Below the pieces are notes generated by a model, which did no database searches, was not told the DNA's origin, and was given only the letters and a program-made list of their open reading frames with translations. 64,000 nt of DNA from Sphingobacteriaceae bacterium (GTDB taxonomy: Bacteria > Bacteroidota > Bacteroidia > Sphingobacteriales > Sphingobacteriaceae): positions 1 to 64,000 of the forward strand of contig JAQSWM010000001.1 of the NCBI GenBank assembly GCA_029266635.1. Direction: 5' to 3'. Positions 41,257 through 53,696 of this stretch are shown here, in pieces. The number at the start of each line of letters is the position of its first letter. Positions within the stretch are counted from its first letter, which is position 1. Made by a program: the position numbers and the translations under genes.

Positions 41257-41835
41257 ATGAGAAAATTAGTTTATGGCATTATAGGCATGTTTGCTGTACT
41301 GTCACTTAGTTCCTGCGGCTATAATACCATGGTAAAATTAGACGAGCAGGTACAATCACAATGGGCGCAGGTACAGAACGTGTATCAGCGACGTGCCGAC
41401 CTGATCCCAAATTTAGTAGCCACAGTGAAAGGAGCTGCCAATTTTGAGAAAGAAACCTTAACTGCCGTTATCGAGGCTCGTGCGAAAGCTACCCAAGTAA
41501 CAGTCGACCCCACCAAACTCACACCAGAATCAATTGAGAAGTTCCAGGCTGCACAAGGGCAATTGTCCCAAGCACTTGGCCGGCTTTTGGTTGTTACCGA
41601 AAACTATCCCGATCTGAAAGCAAACGCCAACTTCCAGGAGCTGCAGGCACAGATTGAAGGAACAGAAAACCGGATCACAGTTGAGCGCCAAAAGTTTAAC
41701 GATGTGACGCAGGAATACAATTCTAAAATAAGAAGCTTCCCTAATAACATCACAGCAGGCATGTTCGGCTTCACCAAGAAAGGTTATTTCCAGGCAGACG
41801 CAGCCTCACAAAAGGCTCCTACTGTTCAGTTTTAA
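41257..41835 (+). CDS. lemA: LemA family lipoprotein
   Basis: A 192-residue protein. The N-terminus is a lipoprotein signal (MRKLVYGIIGMFAVLSLSSC; lipobox LSSC). The body is the LemA four-helix domain with its signatures VQNVYQRRADLIPNLVATVK and ENRITVERQKFNDVTQEYNS. LemA proteins sit in membranes and occur with TPM-domain proteins, as here; their activity is not settled. A hairpin separates it from the next gene. Confidence 0.9.
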   Translation: MRKLVYGIIGMFAVLSLSSCGYNTMVKLDEQVQSQWAQVQNVYQRRADLIPNLVATVKGAANFEKETLTAVIEARAKATQVTVDPTKLTPESIEKFQAAQGQLSQALGRLLVVTENYPDLKANANFQELQAQIEGTENRITVERQKFNDVTQEYNSKIRSFPNNITAGMFGFTKKGYFQADAASQKAPTVQF

Positions 41836-41847
41836 AAAGACAAACAG

Positions 41848-41875
41848 AAGTGCGCCCTCAAACTGAGGCGCACTT
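41848..41875 (+). terminator. Strong hairpin between lemA and the TPM genes
   Basis: AAGTGCGCC-(C)-TCA pairs with TGAGGCGCACTT around a 3-base loop with one bulged C: a 12 bp stem. No T-run follows, so it may stabilise the lemA message or act as a weak or factor-dependent terminator. Confidence 0.45.
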
Positions 41876-41889
41876 ACTCAATTAAGCAA

Positions 41890-42324
41890 ATGGCATTATT
41901 TACTGAAGACGAGCAATTGCAAATACGCAAAGCTATTGAAGCAGCCGAAGGCTCAACTTCCGGCGAGATCAGGATTTGCGTGGAAAAAACCTGCTCTGAA
42001 GATGTGCTGGACCGGGCAGCAAATTACTTTGCCAAGCTCGATATGAACAAAACAGCTCTTCGCAATGGCGTGCTCATTTATTTGGCAACAAACGATCGGA
42101 AGTTTGCGGTCATTGGTGATGCCGGTATAAACCGCCTGGTACCTGCTGATTTTTGGGAGAGCACAAAAGAAGCCATGCTTTCGCACTTCAAAAGCGGGAA
42201 CCTTGTTGAGGGGATAATCACCGGCATCAGCCGTACAGGCGAACAGCTCAAAGCTTACTTTCCTTACCAGGACAGCGATAAGAACGAGCTATCAGATGAC
42301 ATTTCTTTTATGGAAGGCAATTAA
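41890..42324 (+). CDS. TPM-domain protein
   Basis: A 144-residue protein consisting of one TPM (TLP18.3/Psb32/MOLO-1) domain without signal peptide. GEIRICVEKTCSEDVLDRAA, then NGVLIYLATNDRKFAVIGD (the core strand of the fold) are clear. Its stop overlaps the start of the next TPM gene by one base. Such proteins usually act with LemA at the membrane. Confidence 0.85.
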   Translation: MALFTEDEQLQIRKAIEAAEGSTSGEIRICVEKTCSEDVLDRAANYFAKLDMNKTALRNGVLIYLATNDRKFAVIGDAGINRLVPADFWESTKEAMLSHFKSGNLVEGIITGISRTGEQLKAYFPYQDSDKNELSDDISFMEGN

Positions 42325-43151
42325 TGGCAACGTTCAGAAATTTACAAACATTGATCAAGTTCTTACAGGTATCTGCTCTTTTAGCCTTACTCTTTACCTT
42401 ATCGGCAAACGCTCAAAACTTCCCCGAGAAACCCAATAAGCTGGTAAATGATTATACCGGTACGCTTTCCGCAGATGAGGTAAATCGCCTGGAGCAAAAG
42501 CTTGTTGCCTTTAACGATTCAACTTCCACTCAAATCGCGGTAGTGCTTATCAAATCTTTGAACGGATACGATATAGCCGACTACGCTGTTCGCCTGGCTG
42601 AAAAGTGGGGCGTTGGCGGAAGCAAAAACAACAACGGCATCATGGTGCTTGCTGCGCTTAATGACCGAAAGCTCACCATCCAGACCGGCTACGGAGTTGA
42701 AGGCGCACTGCCTGATGCTATAACTGCCCGCATCCGTACCAACGAGATCAATCCGTATTTCAAAGAAGGGCGCTACTATGAGGGCCTGGACCGTGGAACA
42801 GACGCAATTATATCCTACACTAAAGGCGAGTACAAGAATGATGAGCCTAAAAAGACATCCAAGAAATCTAATTCGCCAATCGGGATAATCATTTTTATCA
42901 TCATCATGATCCTGATTTTCCGCTCACGCGGTGGAGGTGGCGGCAGAGGCGGCAGCCAGATTATTGGCAGGCGTGGTGGCGCAAGCCCATTCTGGTGGAT
43001 GCTGGCAGGTTCAGCCATGGGCAGAAGCAGCGGCGGAGGCTGGGGCGGATTCTCTGGCGGAAGCGGAGGCTTTGGTGGTGGCGGAGGAGGTGGCTTCGGC
43101 GGTTTTGGAGGAGGAAGCTTCGGCGGCGGCGGCTCGAGCGGAAGCTGGTAG
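42324..43151 (+). CDS. YgcG-like TPM-domain membrane protein
   Basis: A 275-residue protein: signal peptide or anchor (LLALLFTLSANAQ, ending about residue 30), a TPM domain (about 35-160; NDYTGTLSADEVNRLEQKLV and NNNGIMVLAALNDRKLTIQT), one membrane helix (PIGIIIFIIIMILIF, about 190-204), and a Gly/Ser-rich tail with aromatic spacing that is typical of YgcG proteins. The glycine-rich DNA gives long false reading frames on other strands. Forms an operon with lemA and the first TPM gene. Confidence 0.88.
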   Translation: MATFRNLQTLIKFLQVSALLALLFTLSANAQNFPEKPNKLVNDYTGTLSADEVNRLEQKLVAFNDSTSTQIAVVLIKSLNGYDIADYAVRLAEKWGVGGSKNNNGIMVLAALNDRKLTIQTGYGVEGALPDAITARIRTNEINPYFKEGRYYEGLDRGTDAIISYTKGEYKNDEPKKTSKKSNSPIGIIIFIIIMILIFRSRGGGGGRGGSQIIGRRGGASPFWWMLAGSAMGRSSGGGWGGFSGGSGGFGGGGGGGFGGFGGGSFGGGGSSGSW

Positions 43152-44674: not shown

Positions 44675-45622
44675 ATGGAAGAAGAAAAAAGTATCTGGCA
44701 GCGGCTGGGCATACAAGATTGGTTTCTTACTGATGAAAATACAGGTGCCAGTAACCTGCCACGCAATCTTACGCCCGACGATGTTTATAAATATATTATT
44801 GAGAAGTTCAGTGAATCCATCCCACAACTATCCTTTGCCGGCCGGGTGGTTTTTTACCACGAATTCATCATCTGTTTCAACCCTGAAGACTTCAAGGGCT
44901 TCATGAATAACAAACAGGGAATTTTCGGGCTCATTGTTCATGAATGCGTCAAAGAGTTTTATAACATCTTAAAAGAATTTCGGGCACAGGGAAAAACTGT
45001 GGAACCATCGGGTTCAAAATGGGTTTTCAGGTTTGTTTCATCGCCTGAGTATGCCAGGGGCGATATTGGCTTCATAGGCAAGCTGCTACCAGGCGGCACT
45101 CAGAAAGAAGAAAATCTGCGCATCACGTTCATCCCCCGCCAGACCGGCGTGGCTCAAACTTTTGATGTTAATCAGGATATCCTCAAAGGCTTCACGTTTT
45201 ACAGCGAAGGCTATTACGAGGTGCCTTATGTTGATGAACTTGAACACGATGGAAAGAAAGTCCCATCCGCGAAAGCTTTCTACGCCAAATTCGATACCAT
45301 CCTCCCGGAAAAGGAATTTACCGGGAAGAAGATGGAGTATTTTATGAAGGATGAGGAGATTACCGTGTCCGGAAAAGACGAGAGCCAGGAAGGTTCCAAC
45401 ATTTTTCGCATCCCATCCGATTGGGTTAGCACACCCCACTTGCAAATACGGCTGGACAAAGGTGCGAACAAGTTCTATGTTGCTTCTTTCGGCGAAAGAA
45501 CCCTTTTAAACGAAAAGGAAATACCAAAGAGCGAGATCAGTTCTCCGGAATGGGTAGAACTTCCCATGAATTCCAAAATGATGTTGAACGGAATTGTCGG
45601 TGTAAACATTTTCAAATCTTAA
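44675..45622 (+). CDS. FHA-like protein, FhaA-type architecture
   Basis: A 315-residue protein opening the kinase operon. Residues about 30-115 (FYHEFIICFNPEDFKGFMNN ... CVKEFYNILKEFRAQGKTVE) resemble the DUF3662 domain of actinobacterial FhaA; the C-terminal 90 residues (PHLQIRLDKGANKFYVASFG then LNEKEIPKSE) look like a divergent FHA domain, though the canonical GR and SxxH residues are not obvious. It would be a phosphothreonine reader or scaffold for the SEDS-PBP fusion. Resemblance is by eye; homology is inference. Confidence 0.55.
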   Translation: MEEEKSIWQRLGIQDWFLTDENTGASNLPRNLTPDDVYKYIIEKFSESIPQLSFAGRVVFYHEFIICFNPEDFKGFMNNKQGIFGLIVHECVKEFYNILKEFRAQGKTVEPSGSKWVFRFVSSPEYARGDIGFIGKLLPGGTQKEENLRITFIPRQTGVAQTFDVNQDILKGFTFYSEGYYEVPYVDELEHDGKKVPSAKAFYAKFDTILPEKEFTGKKMEYFMKDEEITVSGKDESQEGSNIFRIPSDWVSTPHLQIRLDKGANKFYVASFGERTLLNEKEIPKSEISSPEWVELPMNSKMMLNGIVGVNIFKS

Positions 45623-45623
45623 C

Positions 45624-45719
45624 ATGTCGCACATATTATCACTGGCACTCCTTGTAATATGCGCTCTCCTTTTGGCGGCGCATTTTATGGATATAAAAAC
45701 GCGAAAACGCAATGGCTGA
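45624..45719 (+). CDS. 31-residue membrane peptide in the kinase operon
   Basis: Product: MSHILSLALLVICALLLAAH followed by a basic tail (FMDIKTRKRNG). It starts one base after the upstream stop and its end overlaps the PP2C start by 8 bp, so it is coupled on both sides. A single membrane helix with a cytoplasmic positive end is expected. Function unknown; possibly an assembly or regulatory subunit of the operon products. Confidence 0.65.
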   Translation: MSHILSLALLVICALLLAAHFMDIKTRKRNG

Positions 45720-47184
45720 GAATTTTTTTGGGTTAACCGATACCGGGAAGGTACGCGGGAATAATGAAGATGCTTTTATAGCGCAGCATGCCTGGGGCGA
45801 TAAATTCATCATTGCTTGTGTAATTGATGGCGTGGGCGGATACTCGGGCGGTGAGGTAGCTGCTGATATTGCTCGCGAAGCTATCCTTGAGCACACCTCC
45901 AAGTCAACTACCGACATTATCTCAATGATGAAGAGGGCTTTTCAGGATGCAAATGAAAAAATACATTCCGAAAGGCTACGGGTAAAAGAACATGACAGCA
46001 TGGCCTGTGTGCTTACGCTTGCCGCCATTGATATCGAGAACAATGTTTTCTATTATGCTCACATCGGCGACACAAGGCTCTACCTCTTCCGCGACAATTC
46101 TCTTGTAAAGATCACTAAGGATCATTCTTTCGTGGGTTTTATGGAAGAATCCGGCCGTATTTCGGAAGACTCGGCCATGCGCCATCCTAAGCGCAACGAG
46201 ATAAACAAAGCTCTGGGTTTTGGCGGCGATCTGGATGAGGATGACTATATAGAAACCGGGCAGTCGCCATTTTTGCCTGGTGATATGCTTCTGCTTTGCA
46301 GCGATGGCCTTACAGACATGGTGAACAAAGAAACCATGACCAATGTGTTGACGAAAAAATCGCAGTTGGAAGAAAAAGCCACTGAGTTAATTTCCGAAGC
46401 CAATGCCAAAGGTGGGAAAGACAATATCACAGTTGTACTGGTTCACAATACCAAATCTCCTGCTAAGCACGAGGCAACCATGCCAACTCCGGTAAAAAAA
46501 AAAGCCGCACATAGTCCGGTAAAAACAGTTCACACCGAGCCTGACACCGTAATTGTAGATCACGAGCGTCCAAGAAGAAGAAGCGGGGTATTGACAACCA
46601 TTCTGTCACTGCTATGCCTTGGGCTGCTGGCAACCACGCTTTACCTGTTGTGGCTCAGGGGAAAAGACGTGAATAAAACTAAGGAAACAGTTGCTGCAGC
46701 AAATCCTACCATTGATAAGCCAAGAAGTCCAGGCGAATTGAAACTACAGAATGCAATTGACACCTTCATTGGCGATACGCTCTACCTTTCCGATTCTGTC
46801 TTTACGGAACCGATCCTGATAAGCGATACCATCCAGATTGTAAAAGATACCATCTACATCAAGACGAGGGGCAATATTGTGCTGCAACGGGATTCGGCTT
46901 ACAAAGGACCTGCTTTCAAACTTACATCAGAATGTAAATCAGTGATGATAGACAGCCTTGAGCTCAGGGACTTCGATTTAGGGATATCCACGGCAAATAC
47001 CGCTTTGCAGCTAAACAACGTACGGTTTACCAACTGTCGCGTGCCGGTACAAGCCACATTCAATTTCCCGGCAAATAAGTTTATCAGCGGGCGCATTATG
47101 GATAATGCATTTGCCACAGACTCGCTTCCGCGAACTGCAGCTGCGCCTGCCAGACCAACCAGATTTTATAAAAATAGACGATAA
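45712..47184 (+). CDS. PP2C Ser/Thr phosphatase with membrane anchor (PstP-like)
   Basis: A 490-residue protein. Residues 1-250 are a PP2C phosphatase with the full motif set: RGNNED (about 13-18), VIDGVGGYSGGEVA, GDTRLYLFRD, LLCSDGLTDMV and GGKDNITVVLV, the Asp residues of which bind two metals. A basic linker leads to one membrane helix (about 293-315, VLTTILSLLCLGLLATTLYL) and a 170-residue outer domain of beta-helix type. Same layout as mycobacterial PstP. It should reverse phosphorylation by the kinase three genes downstream. Confidence 0.88.
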   Translation: MAENFFGLTDTGKVRGNNEDAFIAQHAWGDKFIIACVIDGVGGYSGGEVAADIAREAILEHTSKSTTDIISMMKRAFQDANEKIHSERLRVKEHDSMACVLTLAAIDIENNVFYYAHIGDTRLYLFRDNSLVKITKDHSFVGFMEESGRISEDSAMRHPKRNEINKALGFGGDLDEDDYIETGQSPFLPGDMLLLCSDGLTDMVNKETMTNVLTKKSQLEEKATELISEANAKGGKDNITVVLVHNTKSPAKHEATMPTPVKKKAAHSPVKTVHTEPDTVIVDHERPRRRSGVLTTILSLLCLGLLATTLYLLWLRGKDVNKTKETVAAANPTIDKPRSPGELKLQNAIDTFIGDTLYLSDSVFTEPILISDTIQIVKDTIYIKTRGNIVLQRDSAYKGPAFKLTSECKSVMIDSLELRDFDLGISTANTALQLNNVRFTNCRVPVQATFNFPANKFISGRIMDNAFATDSLPRTAAAPARPTRFYKNRR

Positions 47185-47189
47185 TCCGC

Positions 47190-50100
47190 ATGGACCAACC
47201 TGCTCCTAAAAAGATTGCTAGGAATATAGAACGCATTTTTTTACTACTTAACACCATTGTGCTGAGCCTGTTATTTTTCAGCCTCTACACAGTCCTGCAA
47301 CGCGATTTCACCGATGTGAGACAACGCATTTCGGGTGGGACGATGGTGAACCTCAACGATAAAAGCGCTGGGGAAAGCTTTGGCAATTTGCTCCGAAAAG
47401 GCTACTATTTTGAAGATCCGAGAGATATTGCCTTGATGCAAAATGTTGTTTCATCCGGGCTGAACTCGGCAGAAGGAAAGATTGACAACACGGGCGAGAT
47501 AAACAAGCGAACCTATTTTGTACTTGCCGACGAGGCTTATGCCAAAGGAGGAGAATCTTTCAAGAAACGGGTTATATCCTCCCGCTCTATGCTTGGCTTT
47601 ACAGGCAATGACTCCGTAAGATTTGTCCAGGAAATCAAGAACCCTCCTTCTGTGCCCTCTTCTACCAATGTTGGAATGGGAAAGTACAGCATCAAGGGAA
47701 ACATTATAACCAAAGAAGATAAGCCTGTTTCTGGTGTGCTGGTACGTTTGCAGATGATCCTGCCTCAAGACAGCGCCTACAGCGAAACCGTTACCGAGGT
47801 AGCGAAAAATGCAATTGAAAACGGTCCGGGATTTCAAAGAATTTACCTACTTGATACTCTAGGGCACAGGCAACTACAGTCTCTTTCTGCTTACGCCCGT
47901 ACCGACGCTCAAGGCAACTACTCCTTTGATAAACTTCCGGATGATAAGGCATTCGAGATCATCCCGCTTCAGCCCGGCTTTCAATTTGGCACTTCGCAAG
48001 GTGTTCAGGAACTCGACGATGACGAATCATTCACCTTTGTACAATCGCCTCACACCATCCGGCTCTTATCTACCCGTGATTTTAATATCCTGAAGAAAGA
48101 AAGATCACTGATTGTACGGACTCCTGCCGAATTTAACAAGTGGTTCTGGATCATCGCGATTAGCTTTTTAGCCGGTTTCTGGTTGGTACACCTGGTGTTA
48201 ACAGCACGCTTCAAACTTGCAGATCAACTTATCTTGCCCATCATCATGTTGCTTACAGGATTGTCGTTCATCACTCTGCTAAGCCTTCAGGATCCATTAC
48301 GCGACCGCTTTCTGGCGAGAGATACACTTATCTACTTTGCAATCGGCATTGTTGGCATCATCGCGTTCTTGTTCATAAGCCTGCGGCGATTTACCGCAGA
48401 TTCAGGCTTGTACCGGCTGCTGGTGTTCCGAAACAACAGAAAAGCAGCTAACGGCTGGCCCTGGGCTGTGATCGCTCTCGGCTTGCTAGCTTTGACTATC
48501 GTATTTGGAACTGGTCCCGAGGGAAGCGGTGTGAAGGTGAATCTATTCGGATTTCAGCCGAGTGAGATTGTCAAGTTCAGTATCATTCTGTTTCTTGGAG
48601 GCTTTTTTGCAGCTAACGAGCGGTTCATCAGCGAATACACCAGTTACCGCAAACGCTGGTCCTTCTTTTCCTTCGCACTCATCGCCATTGGCATTGCAAT
48701 ATTGCTTTTCCTTGTGCTGGGCGATTTAGGACCCGCAATGGTTGTTTGTTTTACATTCATCATCCTGTTTTCATTCTCTCGCGGCGATTTTATGTTCATG
48801 ATTGGTTCAATTGTAATTTATGTCGTCGCTACATGGATTTTGAAGGATGCGTGGCTATCAACCGGCGTTACAGTTGTAATTGTGGCACTGCTGATGATCT
48901 TTGGCCGAAAAAAATTAAGCGAATCAGCGATCATGGCTTTGGTGGTGATCGCCGGGTTTTTGTTGATTGACCAGATTCCATATTTGGATAAGGTTTTCCC
49001 TGGTCCGGTTCAGCGTCTGGTTGATAGAAAAGCTATCTGGCAGGATGCCTGGAACAACGAAGTATATGGTGGCGACCAGGTGGCGAACGGTATCTGGGCG
49101 ATGTCGAGCGGCGGCGTTACCGGCCAGGGTGTCGGCGAAGGTTTTGCCAAAACTATCCCGGAAGCACACACAGACATGATCCTCCCTTCAATTGGAGAGG
49201 AATTCGGCTGGACCGGAATCGTTTGTATTTTCATTCTTTTCCTCTTGTACCTGCATCGAGCCATCATCATCGGCAGGCAAACGGGAACGCCATTCCTGTT
49301 CTACCTGTGCACGGGCATCGGGATAAGTACGTTCGTTCAGTTCCTGTTGATTTCCGGTGGCTCTACCGGCGCTCTCCCACTTTCGGGCGTGTCACTACCA
49401 TTTGAAAGTTATGGTGGTTCATCCATGGTGGTGAACTTCCTGGCTTCGGGATTCCTGCTATCGGCTTCACTCGTTCAGGGTACGGCGATACAGATGCAAT
49501 ATGTGACCAAAACTCAGGATAGAAACCTGGTTCCAGCACTTGTAGCGGCGTTTATTGGGCTGGTGCTGTTGACTGTGAATGTTTCGAAATACCTGTTCAA
49601 CAACAAGAAGTGGGTAGTTCAACCGGCCTTGGTAGCCGACCGTGGCGGAGCAAGGATGTTCAGTTACAACCCGCGGATTGCAATCTTGATGAACCGCTTG
49701 CAGGCTGGTACAATCTACGATCGTGAAGGCCGGATATTGGCAACGAGCAAACCAGAACTCATCAGGAAACAAGGCAATTTGCTGCGTTCTGCAGGTCAGT
49801 ATTACAACCTAGATTCTGCCATGCACAAACGTTTGGACAGATACTATCCGTTTGCAGAACAAATGTTCTTCTGGGTGGGCGATGCGAATACCGGCGTGTT
49901 TAACGGTAGCCCGAACGGCTACTTTGCCGAGTACGAACATGCCGCAGACCTGCGAGGCTTCCACACCGAAACAGAGGGCTTTAATGTAACGGCGACCCGC
50001 TACCGAGAAGACCGATTCCTGCCAAGAGGCGTACGGGAAATGTCAGTTGCTAAACGCGATTACAGCGAACTCGCCCCTCTCCTGCTCGCGGGTATCAACA

Positions 50101-51398
50101 GTAAAGCTGTGGAAGAATTCAAAAAGCGGAACCGCGATATCCAATTGACTATGGATGCCGGACTGCAAACGACGCTTCAGAAGTCAATTGCTCTTGACGA
50201 CTCGCTAAAAGACAATCGCGTTTCGGTAGTGGTTATGGAAGCAACCACCGGCGATGTGCTTGCTTCCGCAATGTATCCTTTGCCGCAAATCAACAACTGG
50301 GATCAGTTGACGATGAGCCAGGCTGAGCAAAATAAGCTTGATTACTGGATTACAAACAGCGATTTAGGTTTTACTTATGCAACACAGCCGGGTTCGACAG
50401 CTAAGGTAGCCACCGCTCTGGCGGCCTTCAATAAGTTGGGCGTTGCTGCCGATCAGATAAAATATCCGGTTTACGCTCGTGAGAGAATTCGTACCAAGGG
50501 CATAGAACCAGATGAAACAGGGATGATCAGTATGGAGCGAGCCATTGAGAAATCAAACAACGTTTATTTCATCAAACTGGCCAATGAGCGTCATTTACAG
50601 GAAGACATGGTTACCATTTACATGAAGTGCGGCATGTTCCTTAGGGGCGTTGGCGGATATTATTTCAGCAAGCCTCCTGTAAATACTGATCAGGAAAATA
50701 AATGGCGTGACCTGTGGCGCAAAACCGAGTTCAGTACCAAACCCGCTTATGATCCGAATAACATTCGCAGGACACGGGCAAAGGGCATTTCGGGTATGTC
50801 GTGGGGACAGGGCGAACTTATTGCCACGCCAGCGGCAATTGCCCGGATGGCTGGCAGCATAGCTAACCATGGAACATTAGTGCCTAACCGCTACGTTCTT
50901 CGAATTGCTGACTCGCAAATTCCCGTTAGCAGCGGTGTGAAGTTAGCTGAAGATCCTAAATATGCAGATTACATACGTGGGTATATGATCAAGCAGAGTG
51001 CACCCAAAGTACCGATATTGAACCTCTCCGTTGCGGGAAAATCAGGTACGCCGGAGAGAATCTGGAAGCGTGAGCGCATCAACGACGGCTGGTATGTATT
51101 CTTTGCTCCAAAGGCCAAAGGCGACGGGTATATTGTGGTTTGTATCCGTGTAGAATCAACAAAAGGCTCAAGCGATGCGGTAAGGTTAGCAGGTCAACAC
51201 GTGGTGCCGCTTTTATTGAAGAAAGGCTATGTTAAGAATATAGTAGATCCGGCGAAGCCAGCGACGGGAGCTTTGGTAACAGACAATCTGCAGCTACAGC
51301 CGACTACGCAGCAACCCGTCACAGAACCTACCCAACAGCCATCCGCCAAGCCTACTGCTCAACCAGCAGATACATCGGCTTCAAGCAGCCCGCAATAA
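47190..51398 (+). CDS. SEDS glycosyltransferase-class B PBP fusion
   Basis: A 1402-residue membrane protein. Residues 1-40 hold a first membrane helix; 160-275 an outer carboxypeptidase-regulatory-like beta domain (GNIITKEDKPVSGVLVRLQM ... ARTDAQGNYSFDKLP); 325-800 a SEDS domain with QPSE (456-459), PEAHTD with catalytic-type Asp662, and PLSGVSLPFESYGGSSM; 850-1350 a class B PBP with GTIYDREGRILA, S1069-T-A-K1072, S1122-N-N and K1284-S-G-T. The C-terminus is Pro/Gln/Thr-rich. It should polymerise and cross-link glycan strands in one chain. Rod or division systems normally use two proteins. Confidence 0.9.
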   Translation: MDQPAPKKIARNIERIFLLLNTIVLSLLFFSLYTVLQRDFTDVRQRISGGTMVNLNDKSAGESFGNLLRKGYYFEDPRDIALMQNVVSSGLNSAEGKIDNTGEINKRTYFVLADEAYAKGGESFKKRVISSRSMLGFTGNDSVRFVQEIKNPPSVPSSTNVGMGKYSIKGNIITKEDKPVSGVLVRLQMILPQDSAYSETVTEVAKNAIENGPGFQRIYLLDTLGHRQLQSLSAYARTDAQGNYSFDKLPDDKAFEIIPLQPGFQFGTSQGVQELDDDESFTFVQSPHTIRLLSTRDFNILKKERSLIVRTPAEFNKWFWIIAISFLAGFWLVHLVLTARFKLADQLILPIIMLLTGLSFITLLSLQDPLRDRFLARDTLIYFAIGIVGIIAFLFISLRRFTADSGLYRLLVFRNNRKAANGWPWAVIALGLLALTIVFGTGPEGSGVKVNLFGFQPSEIVKFSIILFLGGFFAANERFISEYTSYRKRWSFFSFALIAIGIAILLFLVLGDLGPAMVVCFTFIILFSFSRGDFMFMIGSIVIYVVATWILKDAWLSTGVTVVIVALLMIFGRKKLSESAIMALVVIAGFLLIDQIPYLDKVFPGPVQRLVDRKAIWQDAWNNEVYGGDQVANGIWAMSSGGVTGQGVGEGFAKTIPEAHTDMILPSIGEEFGWTGIVCIFILFLLYLHRAIIIGRQTGTPFLFYLCTGIGISTFVQFLLISGGSTGALPLSGVSLPFESYGGSSMVVNFLASGFLLSASLVQGTAIQMQYVTKTQDRNLVPALVAAFIGLVLLTVNVSKYLFNNKKWVVQPALVADRGGARMFSYNPRIAILMNRLQAGTIYDREGRILATSKPELIRKQGNLLRSAGQYYNLDSAMHKRLDRYYPFAEQMFFWVGDANTGVFNGSPNGYFAEYEHAADLRGFHTETEGFNVTATRYREDRFLPRGVREMSVAKRDYSELAPLLLAGINSKAVEEFKKRNRDIQLTMDAGLQTTLQKSIALDDSLKDNRVSVVVMEATTGDVLASAMYPLPQINNWDQLTMSQAEQNKLDYWITNSDLGFTYATQPGSTAKVATALAAFNKLGVAADQIKYPVYARERIRTKGIEPDETGMISMERAIEKSNNVYFIKLANERHLQEDMVTIYMKCGMFLRGVGGYYFSKPPVNTDQENKWRDLWRKTEFSTKPAYDPNNIRRTRAKGISGMSWGQGELIATPAAIARMAGSIANHGTLVPNRYVLRIADSQIPVSSGVKLAEDPKYADYIRGYMIKQSAPKVPILNLSVAGKSGTPERIWKRERINDGWYVFFAPKAKGDGYIVVCIRVESTKGSSDAVRLAGQHVVPLLLKKGYVKNIVDPAKPATGALVTDNLQLQPTTQQPVTEPTQQPSAKPTAQPADTSASSSPQ

Positions 51399-51453: not shown

Positions 51454-52242
51454 ATGTTCGATATATTTAAAAGCGACACAGAAAGTCGCCCTCAAGATGT
51501 TAAAGGACTGCGGGAAGCGGTTCTTCGTTTCATAAAAGATGAATTACAAAGAGTAGAAGGCGGCGAAGGCAGCCATATAAAAGGCTTACATATTTTCCTG
51601 ATGTGTTCGGAAGAACAGACGCATGTCTATGAGTCGGCGGTGTATGCAGAGGAACCTCAGAAGTTTCGTGAAGAAATTCAAAAAATAGCTGACGATTTTG
51701 CCATCAGCCTTCCTGAAAACTGGATGATTGAAACCACGTTTACAGATGCGCTGCCAACCGAGGCAATTAAGAGTAAAGAAATTGATGCTGCCTTGTTTAT
51801 CAAGACAACCAAACACGCACTGCAGAAATCCGGAGATGCTTACATCAGGGTTTTAAGCGGCGAGGCAGAAAAGACAGAATACCACATCACTTCAGACAGC
51901 GGAAAAATAAGGATTGGCCGTGAGAAAAAAGCGCAAGATTCAAATGGCTTTTTCAGGATGAACACTATTGCATTCCCCGGCGACAGCCAAAACGAGTGCA
52001 ACAAATACATCAGCAGGCAACATGCGCATATTGAGTGGAACAATGACGCCGGAGTTTTCATCCTGTATGCAGATGAGGGCGGAGTCCCACCGCATAACAA
52101 AATCAAGATACAGTCATCAATTGATGAAGAGCAAATCAAACTGAATTCTACAGAAATCGGGCATACGCTGCAAGAAGGCGATCAGATCATTCTTGGAGAA
52201 TCGGCCGTTTTAGAGTTCAGTTTTAGATCGGAGGAGGAATAA
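51454..52242 (+). CDS. FHA-domain protein
   Basis: A 262-residue cytoplasmic protein. The C-terminal FHA domain is clear: KIRIGREKKAQ (Gly-Arg), NKYISRQHAHIEWNN (Ser-x-x-His) and the later strands to VLEFSFRSEEE. The N-terminal 120 residues (LREAVLRFIKDELQRVEGGE) resemble the FhaA N-terminal domain. It should bind phosphothreonine on the kinase or on the SEDS-PBP fusion. Its stop overlaps the kinase ATG (TAATG). Confidence 0.8.
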   Translation: MFDIFKSDTESRPQDVKGLREAVLRFIKDELQRVEGGEGSHIKGLHIFLMCSEEQTHVYESAVYAEEPQKFREEIQKIADDFAISLPENWMIETTFTDALPTEAIKSKEIDAALFIKTTKHALQKSGDAYIRVLSGEAEKTEYHITSDSGKIRIGREKKAQDSNGFFRMNTIAFPGDSQNECNKYISRQHAHIEWNNDAGVFILYADEGGVPPHNKIKIQSSIDEEQIKLNSTEIGHTLQEGDQIILGESAVLEFSFRSEEE

Positions 52243-53696
52243 TGCCAAGGGTATTCACCATAACAGAAGGGCTAGAGAACATGGGCGCAATGCGCACCGG
52301 CGGGCAGGGCTCTGTTTATAAGGGGAAGCGGATTGGCGAGATAGTTACGGCTGTTAAGATCCTGCCCACCCCTATTTACGCCGAGAACAATGAAGATCAG
52401 AACTTCAGGAATTTTCAAAGCGAAGTTGCCAAGCTAAAGAAAGTAAATGAAGAGCCCAGTCCACATGTGGTGACTATCTTAAGCTCGGGCATTACAGACA
52501 GCGGATCCCTGCCATTCATCGAAATGGAATATATTGAAGGCCCCGACTTGGAGGAGCTCCTGAAACCACCACACGATCCTATTTTCACCATCAAAGAAGC
52601 CATCAAACTAGCCGATCAGTTAGCATGCGCCCTTGCACATTGCCACAGAGTTGAAGTAAGGCATGGCGATATTAAGAGCAACAATGTTAAGCTGAACGTA
52701 CATTCCGGCAATTACATGCTGCTTGATTTTGGGCTTTCTGTGATGTCTGATGAACAGCGACGCACCAGCCTGCGCCATGCCGGCGCCATTGAATTCATGG
52801 CCCCGGAACAGAACGATGGGAAAATGCTGTATCAAACGGACATTTACAGTTATGGAATCATTCTGTTCGAATTACTTGCGGGCACCGTCCCATTTCCTTT
52901 AACAGATAATAGTGAGATATCCCGGAATGAAGTGATGATCTCTCATATGGACGCCCAGCTTCCGGATCTGCTAAAACTCCGGTTGAAGAATATGCCCGAG
53001 CAATGGCCGCAGGAACAACGCATTTCCGAAATGCAGGTGCCTCAATGGCTGCTCAACATTGTTTATAAGTGTTTAGAAAAGGATCCGGAGAAAAGATTTG
53101 TTAATGGCACTGAGCTTCATGAAGCCATTGCCAACAGGACCGTGGCGGCACATCAGGCGAGCAGCGTGAACGCGGTAATTATTGAAAGTGAAAATGAGCG
53201 CCTGCAAACAATTCTGAACGCTAAAGACGAGCACTTAACAAAGCTCAAAGAAACGCTTGCAAAAAAAGAGGCTGAACTGCTATCGTTTAAAAATCAGGCA
53301 GACTTCGCCAGGAAAGCCGTGCCAGTAGCAAGGCCTGTGTTCCTGGTTCTGCTACTGCTGATGCTTTCACTGGTAGTATTTGCCGGCTTTACGCTCCTGC
53401 GGGATAAACGTTCCGGCCATCAAACTTCTGCGCTGCTTGATACCACGATGGATTCAACTGCAATTGCTGATTCAATAGCTAAAGCAGATTCGTTGGCAAA
53501 AGTAGATTCTGCGATGAGGGCTGATTCGATAAGGAAGGCTGAAGCGCTGGCAAGAGCAAGCGAGCCGAAAACGCCGATTAGAGAGATTTCCGCTCAGTCC
53601 GAACCTGCCAATGAAGACCACGGTAAAGGAAACGGGAAAGCCAAAGGCAAAGGCAAAAAGAATAAGCTGTTTGAAGTGCGGTTTGTTAAACCCTAG
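52242..53696 (+). CDS. Transmembrane Ser/Thr protein kinase (PknB-like)
   Basis: A 484-residue Hanks-type kinase. Glycine loop MRTGGQGSVYKG (17-28), ATP Lys39 (TAVKIL), catalytic loop H141-G-D143-IKSNN (Gly instead of the usual Arg, so a non-RD kinase), DFG 162-164, and MAPEQ. A coiled coil (about 320-355) precedes one membrane helix (about 366-386) and an outer tail with repeated A-D-S/A-K units and a Lys/Gly-rich end. No PASTA domains are seen. It should phosphorylate its operon partners; PP2C reverses it. Confidence 0.9.
   Translation: MPRVFTITEGLENMGAMRTGGQGSVYKGKRIGEIVTAVKILPTPIYAENNEDQNFRNFQSEVAKLKKVNEEPSPHVVTILSSGITDSGSLPFIEMEYIEGPDLEELLKPPHDPIFTIKEAIKLADQLACALAHCHRVEVRHGDIKSNNVKLNVHSGNYMLLDFGLSVMSDEQRRTSLRHAGAIEFMAPEQNDGKMLYQTDIYSYGIILFELLAGTVPFPLTDNSEISRNEVMISHMDAQLPDLLKLRLKNMPEQWPQEQRISEMQVPQWLLNIVYKCLEKDPEKRFVNGTELHEAIANRTVAAHQASSVNAVIIESENERLQTILNAKDEHLTKLKETLAKKEAELLSFKNQADFARKAVPVARPVFLVLLLLMLSLVVFAGFTLLRDKRSGHQTSALLDTTMDSTAIADSIAKADSLAKVDSAMRADSIRKAEALARASEPKTPIREISAQSEPANEDHGKGNGKAKGKGKKNKLFEVRFVKP

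Follow-up and report, generated by a model that had tools for sequence, protein, structure and literature searches.

We have analyzed a stretch of 64,000 nucleotides (positions 1 to 64,000 of contig JAQSWM010000001.1, assembly GCA_029266635.1, hereafter the window) from a Sphingobacteriaceae bacterium, and found that one of its genes codes for a natural single-chain cell wall synthase, a SEDS-family polymerase joined to a class B penicillin-binding protein (PBP). The gene belongs to a conserved set with a Ser/Thr protein kinase, a PP2C-type phosphatase and two FHA proteins. The reading that we favor, with a probability of about two in three, is that the fusion is an accessory, kinase-controlled lipid II polymerase and transpeptidase.

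A polymerase and a transpeptidase in one frame

The original prediction for this region, made from the sequence alone, had proposed an uninterrupted frame of 1402 residues with six SEDS and PBP motifs. The frame starts with ATG and runs over its 1402 codons with no internal stop, and the motifs were all located at the residues proposed, QPSE starting at 456, PEAHTD at 657 (the Asp being residue 662) and SYGGSS at 740 in the SEDS part, and STAK at 1069, SNN at 1122 and KSGT at 1284 in the PBP half. The parts of the gene are as follows.

47190..51398, + strand: SEDS::class B PBP single-chain synthase, ATG start, 1402 residues plus stop
47298..48137, + strand: N-terminal domain flanked by two extra membrane helices (residues 37-316), predicted extracytoplasmic from hydropathy and loop charges
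48207..49499, + strand: SEDS polymerase part with 12 predicted helices (residues 340-770), from PF01098, PDB sequence matches and hydropathy
48987..49214, + strand: outer catalytic loop with PEAHTD and Asp662 (residues 600-675), from the FtsW/MrdB alignment and predicted to lie outside
49527..49583, + strand: PBP transmembrane helix (residues 780-798), from hydropathy
49584..50222, + strand: diverged PBP pedestal (residues 799-1011), with no Pfam dimerization domain and partly within the PBP-like stretch of the structure model
50223..51173, + strand: transpeptidase domain with S1069TAK, S1122NN and K1284SGT (residues 1012-1328), from PF00905 and the class B PBP structure match

Both halves were well above the Pfam cut-offs, with 152.3 bits for FTSW_RODA_SPOVE (PF01098, cut-off 26.4) and 87.2 bits for Transpeptidase (PF00905, cut-off 22.1). 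No further Pfam domain was found in the fusion at E values up to 0.01, and since SEDS and transpeptidase are all that Pfam gives, the glycosyltransferase-51 domain is absent. To the SEDS half, the best sequence matches in the PDB set were FtsW and RodA structures (25hr, 8bh1, 8tj3), and Asp662 in its PEAHTD aligned with the PEAHTD of FtsW and the PERHTD of MrdB (RodA) chains. Conservation of the motifs was followed in an alignment of 71 rows, the window sequence and 70 relatives with an unbroken frame and more than 1750 bits (4 of the 74 relatives described below were left out). QPSE, SYGGSS, SxxK and SNN were each kept in 71/71 rows. PEAHTD was found in 70/71, the single exception being PEPHTD, so that the H, T and D were kept in all of them, and K[TS]GT also appeared in 70/71, the remaining row being without that stretch. 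The KSGT of the window is the rarer form of this last motif (2 rows, versus 68 with KTGT).

Hydropathy and loop charges predict 15 helices in the fusion. An N-terminal helix, some 280 outer residues and a second helix come ahead of the SEDS part, an arrangement that canonical SEDS proteins do not have. The SEDS part itself is probably, to judge from the predicted helices, the canonical ten plus an extra hairpin at residues 554-599; profile matches to actinobacterial RodA break at this hairpin and other profile matches cross it. Alternation of helix sides would place the N-terminal domain, the Asp662 loop and the PBP outside, and in the longer loops predicted inside Lys plus Arg exceed Asp plus Glu. 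The chain that the original prediction described is a conserved one (in 74/74 relatives) with a predicted topology fit for work.

Within the N-terminal outer domain, residues ~165-290 look like a CarboxypepD_reg beta sandwich, below the Pfam threshold in the fusion (E 0.00066) and above the cut-off in one distant relative (44.8 bits). Its beta strands were mostly well predicted in the structure model, and a single-sequence model of the domain reached a predicted local distance difference test score (pLDDT) of only 42.1. The model of residues 165-1352 was of moderate confidence (pLDDT 70.5, predicted template modeling score 0.51), low in the catalytic loop and the pedestal. Its final ~500 residues (~672-1188 of the model) matched class B PBP chains with Z values of 28-30, the best fold matches of the PBP half being Pseudomonas PBP3 and other class B PBPs, and this match covers part of the pedestal stretch, where pLDDT is low. 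No SEDS chain stood among the 50 structure matches listed, a list filled by one domain.

Conservation and spread in Bacteroidota

When one genome per species was scanned, relatives of the fusion with 58-72% identity appeared at 74 distinct loci, some of them cut by contig ends. The SEDS and transpeptidase matches lay within one frame in all 74, and in two of these (L071 and L115) the protein was spread across two frames elsewhere in the chain. This rules out a sequencing error or a lone oddity, and answers the possibility of a frameshift that the original prediction had itself raised. The loci come from Sphingobacteriaceae (Mucilaginibacter, Pedobacter, Paradesertivirga, Daejeonella and others) and from Chitinophagaceae/Chitinophagales (Segetibacter, Paraflavisolibacter, Ferruginibacter, Flaviaesturariibacter and others), to which we take some of these genera to belong.

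Whole-genome searches found the fusion in 126 of 399 genomes from the family of the window, as counted by hand from the match table (near-full or large matches with E = 0, those of genomes G572 and G530 being incomplete). It was found in 30/244 genomes of a second family, a few of them with partial matches, and in 15/395 drawn across the phylum, five of these being very diverged and sharing the phylum and not the class. With these numbers, most relatives live without the fusion, which is conserved yet patchy in Bacteroidota. Among phages 31 records matched, none covering more than 80% of the query, and the ten best listed matched the SEDS stretch only.

A conserved set of kinase, phosphatase and FHA genes

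The fusion is the third gene of a module with the order FHA1, PP2C phosphatase, fusion, FHA2 and Ser/Thr kinase, separated by 89, 5 and 55 nt and then by an overlap of 1 nt. Its four partners are these.

44675..45622, + strand: FHA1, 315 residues, an N-terminal domain of no known family and a degenerate FHA-like end (Pfam FHA E 0.082, below cut-off)
45712..47184, + strand: PP2C-type Ser/Thr phosphatase with a C-terminal extension (Pfam PP2C 54 bits)
51454..52242, + strand: FHA2, 262 residues, ending in a canonical FHA domain (Pfam FHA 22.4 bits)
52242..53696, + strand: Ser/Thr protein kinase, apparently with a single membrane helix, read by eye (Pfam Pkinase 125.7 bits)

Of the 74 loci, all had the fusion, 72 had FHA2, 71 PP2C, 70 the kinase and 69 FHA1. 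Several of the absences correspond to short loci at contig ends, and a second kinase gene was often present. Searches of the same loci for nine other genes that flank the module in the window gave no match. A chance fusion without fixed neighbors is ruled out by this recurrence. The key residues of the partners are kept as well: DGVGG of the phosphatase in 71/71 rows, GR and SRxH of FHA2 each in 73/73, and DFG of the kinase in 122/122. The phosphatase scored 213 bits against NCBIfam Stp1/IreP, slightly below the cut-off of 230. Since one-chain enzymes adjoin kinase, phosphatase and FHA genes that keep their key residues, a phospho-switched accessory synthase is the simplest account of the module.

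In Spirosoma oryzicola (L128) the module is on a 137-kb plasmid (NZ_CP089545.1), in the order FHA, PP2C, kinase, kinase, fusion, FHA, and the fusion is annotated merely as an FtsW/RodA/SpoVE family protein. Pedobacter panaciterrae O48 carries two copies (L075 and L077) on one contig, roughly 100-125 kb apart, and the FHA1 match of L077 is split across two frames. In the window, a LemA-like gene and two TPM-domain genes (41257-43151) lie immediately upstream of the module and are not conserved alongside it.

A distant relative (genome G983, L166:6762-10913) has PP2C, SEDS and transpeptidase domains in one frame of 1387 codons (1384 from the first Met). Its near relatives have PP2C as a separate gene and it was the single genome of that family in the collection searched, so the three-enzyme frame may come from a sequence error at the junction.

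In the fusion itself, four residues of the predicted inner loops are candidate phosphosites, as suggested by their position and conservation: Ser577 and Ser579 (71/71 rows), Thr698 (70 Thr, 1 Ser) and Thr765 (59 Thr and 10 Ser of 71). Kinase control, raised in the original prediction as a possibility, has the support of its context only, with fixed kinase, phosphatase and FHA neighbors, conserved residues and a PP2C within the chain of one relative.

Comparison with actinobacterial operons and other fusions

The actinobacterial operon FhaA-FhaB-PstP-RodA-PbpA-PknA-PknB holds, like the module, FHA, PP2C, SEDS, class B PBP and Ser/Thr kinase genes (FhaA, PstP and PknA being the names that we presume, as the records read FHA, PP2C, kinase and pknB). 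In Tsukamurella and Actinomyces we found FHA, FHA, PP2C, RodA, PbpA, kinase and PASTA kinase in a row and unfused, the PP2C being annotated in Actinomyces and falling in a gap of the incomplete Tsukamurella table. RodA and PbpA are separate genes there, whereas the Bacteroidota module has them in one frame; the last kinase of the operon has PASTA domains, unlike that of the module, and the FhaA-like protein is annotated with DUF3662, which was not recognized in the FHA proteins of the module. For FHA1 Pfam gave no DUF3662 match and profile comparison pointed to that region with a probability under 4%, too weak to assign this domain to FHA1 or FHA2.

In a SEDS tree of 26 rows (unrooted, with long branches, and with the Arthrobacter, Streptomyces, Chitinophagales, Segetibacter and Mucilaginibacter rows dropped), 11 Bacteroidota fusions formed one clade (100/100), ten canonical FtsW/RodA/SpoVE rows split from all others (100/100), and actinobacterial and Monoglobus FHA-linked RodA fell between the canonical rows and the fusions. 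The Monoglobus pectinilyticus locus (L145, a clostridial record) has an unfused FHA-SEDS-PBP trio, and its SEDS protein took a position in the tree between actinobacterial kinase-linked RodA and the fusions. The 11 fusions also came together (98/96) in the transpeptidase tree, likewise unrooted and with long branches, to which the Klebsiella transpeptidase L179 gave no row. The trees fit one old Bacteroidota fusion, in which at least the SEDS half would derive from a kinase-linked pair. Homology of the PBP half to actinobacterial PbpA did not show in the transpeptidase tree.

SEDS-PBP fusions as a kind are already known; natural ones of Rhodococcus are mentioned in PMC10449877, with the genome of Rhodococcus sp. 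RHA1 cited. Like the Bacteroidota fusion, those of Rhodococcus have SEDS and then PBP in a single open frame, but they measure ~880-950 residues and have no large N-terminal outer domain. The fusions of the R. fascians and LW-XY12 plasmids (pFiD188 and pLW2) adjoin PP2C and FHA genes, a DUF4407 protein with a kinase domain is near the one in pLW2, and Herbiconiux has a SEDS::PBP fusion near a PP2C gene. These plasmid loci (L189, L190 and L191) thus have fusions near PP2C, with FHA too on L189 and L190, and one is typed conjugative. The R. pseudokoreensis fusion had no annotated PP2C or FHA neighbors within the stretch read. Because the tree does not group all fusions, the actinobacterial and the Bacteroidota ones probably represent separate fusion events. 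A tree uniting 13 fusions, from which the Pedobacter and Paradesertivirga rows of Bacteroidota had been dropped beforehand, and with it a single origin of all SEDS::PBP fusions, was rejected (p value of the approximately unbiased test 0.011), a result that long branches make unsure. Among the literature hits listed, which were a part of those obtained, we recognized no description of the Bacteroidota fusion family, its N-terminal domain or the module; bioRxiv and most subscription journals were outside the scope of these searches.

As in the fusion, RodA and PBP2 of Escherichia coli act as a pair of polymerase and transpeptidase. They are two genes in nature, and have neither a kinase module nor an N-terminal outer domain. 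An engineered RodA-PBP2 fusion is active, according to two papers (PMC6207328 and PMC10449877).

Weighing the alternatives

Several observations count against a kinase-controlled single-chain synthase. The model is not good enough to place the SEDS and PBP halves relative to one another, and the PBP_dimer pedestal, which connects polymerase and transpeptidase in RodA-PBP2, appears in Pfam with E 0.1 across 17 residues only, below the cut-off. By its residues FHA1 is a degenerate FHA, the position taken as equivalent of SRxH in FHA2 being mostly NxPH. The kinase of the module has no PASTA, since Pfam gave kinase domains alone at E values up to 0.01. The PP2C::SEDS::PBP chain was seen in G983 only, and the transpeptidase tree (25 rows) did not join the fusions to actinobacterial PbpA. 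Finally, the phosphosites in the fusion are so far candidates only.

This last point, together with the short predicted cytoplasmic loops, would suit the explanation that the kinase, phosphatase and FHA genes serve other targets and are merely co-inherited with the synthase. We consider it improbable, though worth keeping in mind, in view of the tight spacing (5 nt, 55 nt and the 1-nt overlap) and the conserved gene set, of the phosphatase found in the same chain as the synthase in one relative, and of residues in predicted cytoplasmic loops that are invariant (Ser577 and Ser579) or nearly so (Thr698).

A similar, rather low, chance would be given to a backup synthase for wall stress or beta-lactams, with a poorly inhibited transpeptidase switched on by the kinase module. 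By sequence, the transpeptidase half was closest in the PDB set to PBP2a, followed by PBP5-type and PBP2-type enzymes, and the patchy, plasmid-borne spread suits an optional function. However, these sequence scores were weak, the best matches by fold were Pseudomonas PBP3 and other class B PBPs, and no resistance gene was seen within the module.

SEDS and class B PBP pairs generally run elongation and division, and the fusion could be an ordinary synthase of this kind that is merely fused. Against this, contig 16 and contig 1 of the same genome carry separate SEDS genes with a transpeptidase gene a few kb away or less in each case, which form RodA/PBP2-type and FtsW/FtsI-type pairs, and the genome has two more transpeptidase-domain genes. 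The existence of these separate pairs makes the fusion an extra one, and with most relatives lacking it altogether the ordinary role looks distinctly unlikely. Equally hard to sustain is a precursor cleaved into the normal two-protein complex: cleavage between helices 14 and 15 would yield two normal-looking proteins, a minor amount of cleavage is reported for an engineered RodA-PBP2 fusion (PMC6207328), and G572 carries the N-terminal domain and the rest in separate frames, but SEDS and transpeptidase share their frame in 74/74 loci when a two-protein form would tolerate a split.

Proposed mechanism and significance

In the accessory, kinase-controlled synthase that we propose, Asp662 of the SEDS part would serve to polymerize lipid II on the outer face and Ser1069 of the tethered PBP to cross-link the new strand, the two halves making a contact of the RodA-PBP2 type. 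The role of the N-terminal outer domain, the natural suspect for signal sensing, is probably to sense wall or envelope material or to anchor the enzyme to it. The membrane kinase and the PP2C phosphatase next to the fusion would set the phosphorylation state, and the FHA proteins, FHA2 above all, may recruit or gate the synthase by reading phosphothreonine.

A more extensive proposal, which we regard as tentative and somewhat less probable than not, is that of a mobile phospho-switched module: a SEDS::PBP lineage proper to Bacteroidota that is inherited with its kinase, phosphatase and phosphothreonine reader and travels on plasmids, with PP2C taken into the chain in one lineage, and in which direct phosphorylation would switch polymerization and cross-linking together. 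In that case the actinobacterial plasmid fusions with PP2C and FHA neighbors would have reached this design independently, by a second route.

As prime targets of antibiotics, SEDS-PBP pairs raise the question of how polymerization and cross-linking are coupled and switched. In the fusion, a stable natural chain sets the stoichiometry that otherwise had to be imposed by engineering, and the conserved kinase, phosphatase and FHA genes beside it provide a self-contained system for studying phospho-control of both activities. Since fusions recur beside phosphatase and FHA genes, and several are on plasmids, this suggests a portable accessory rather than core machinery.

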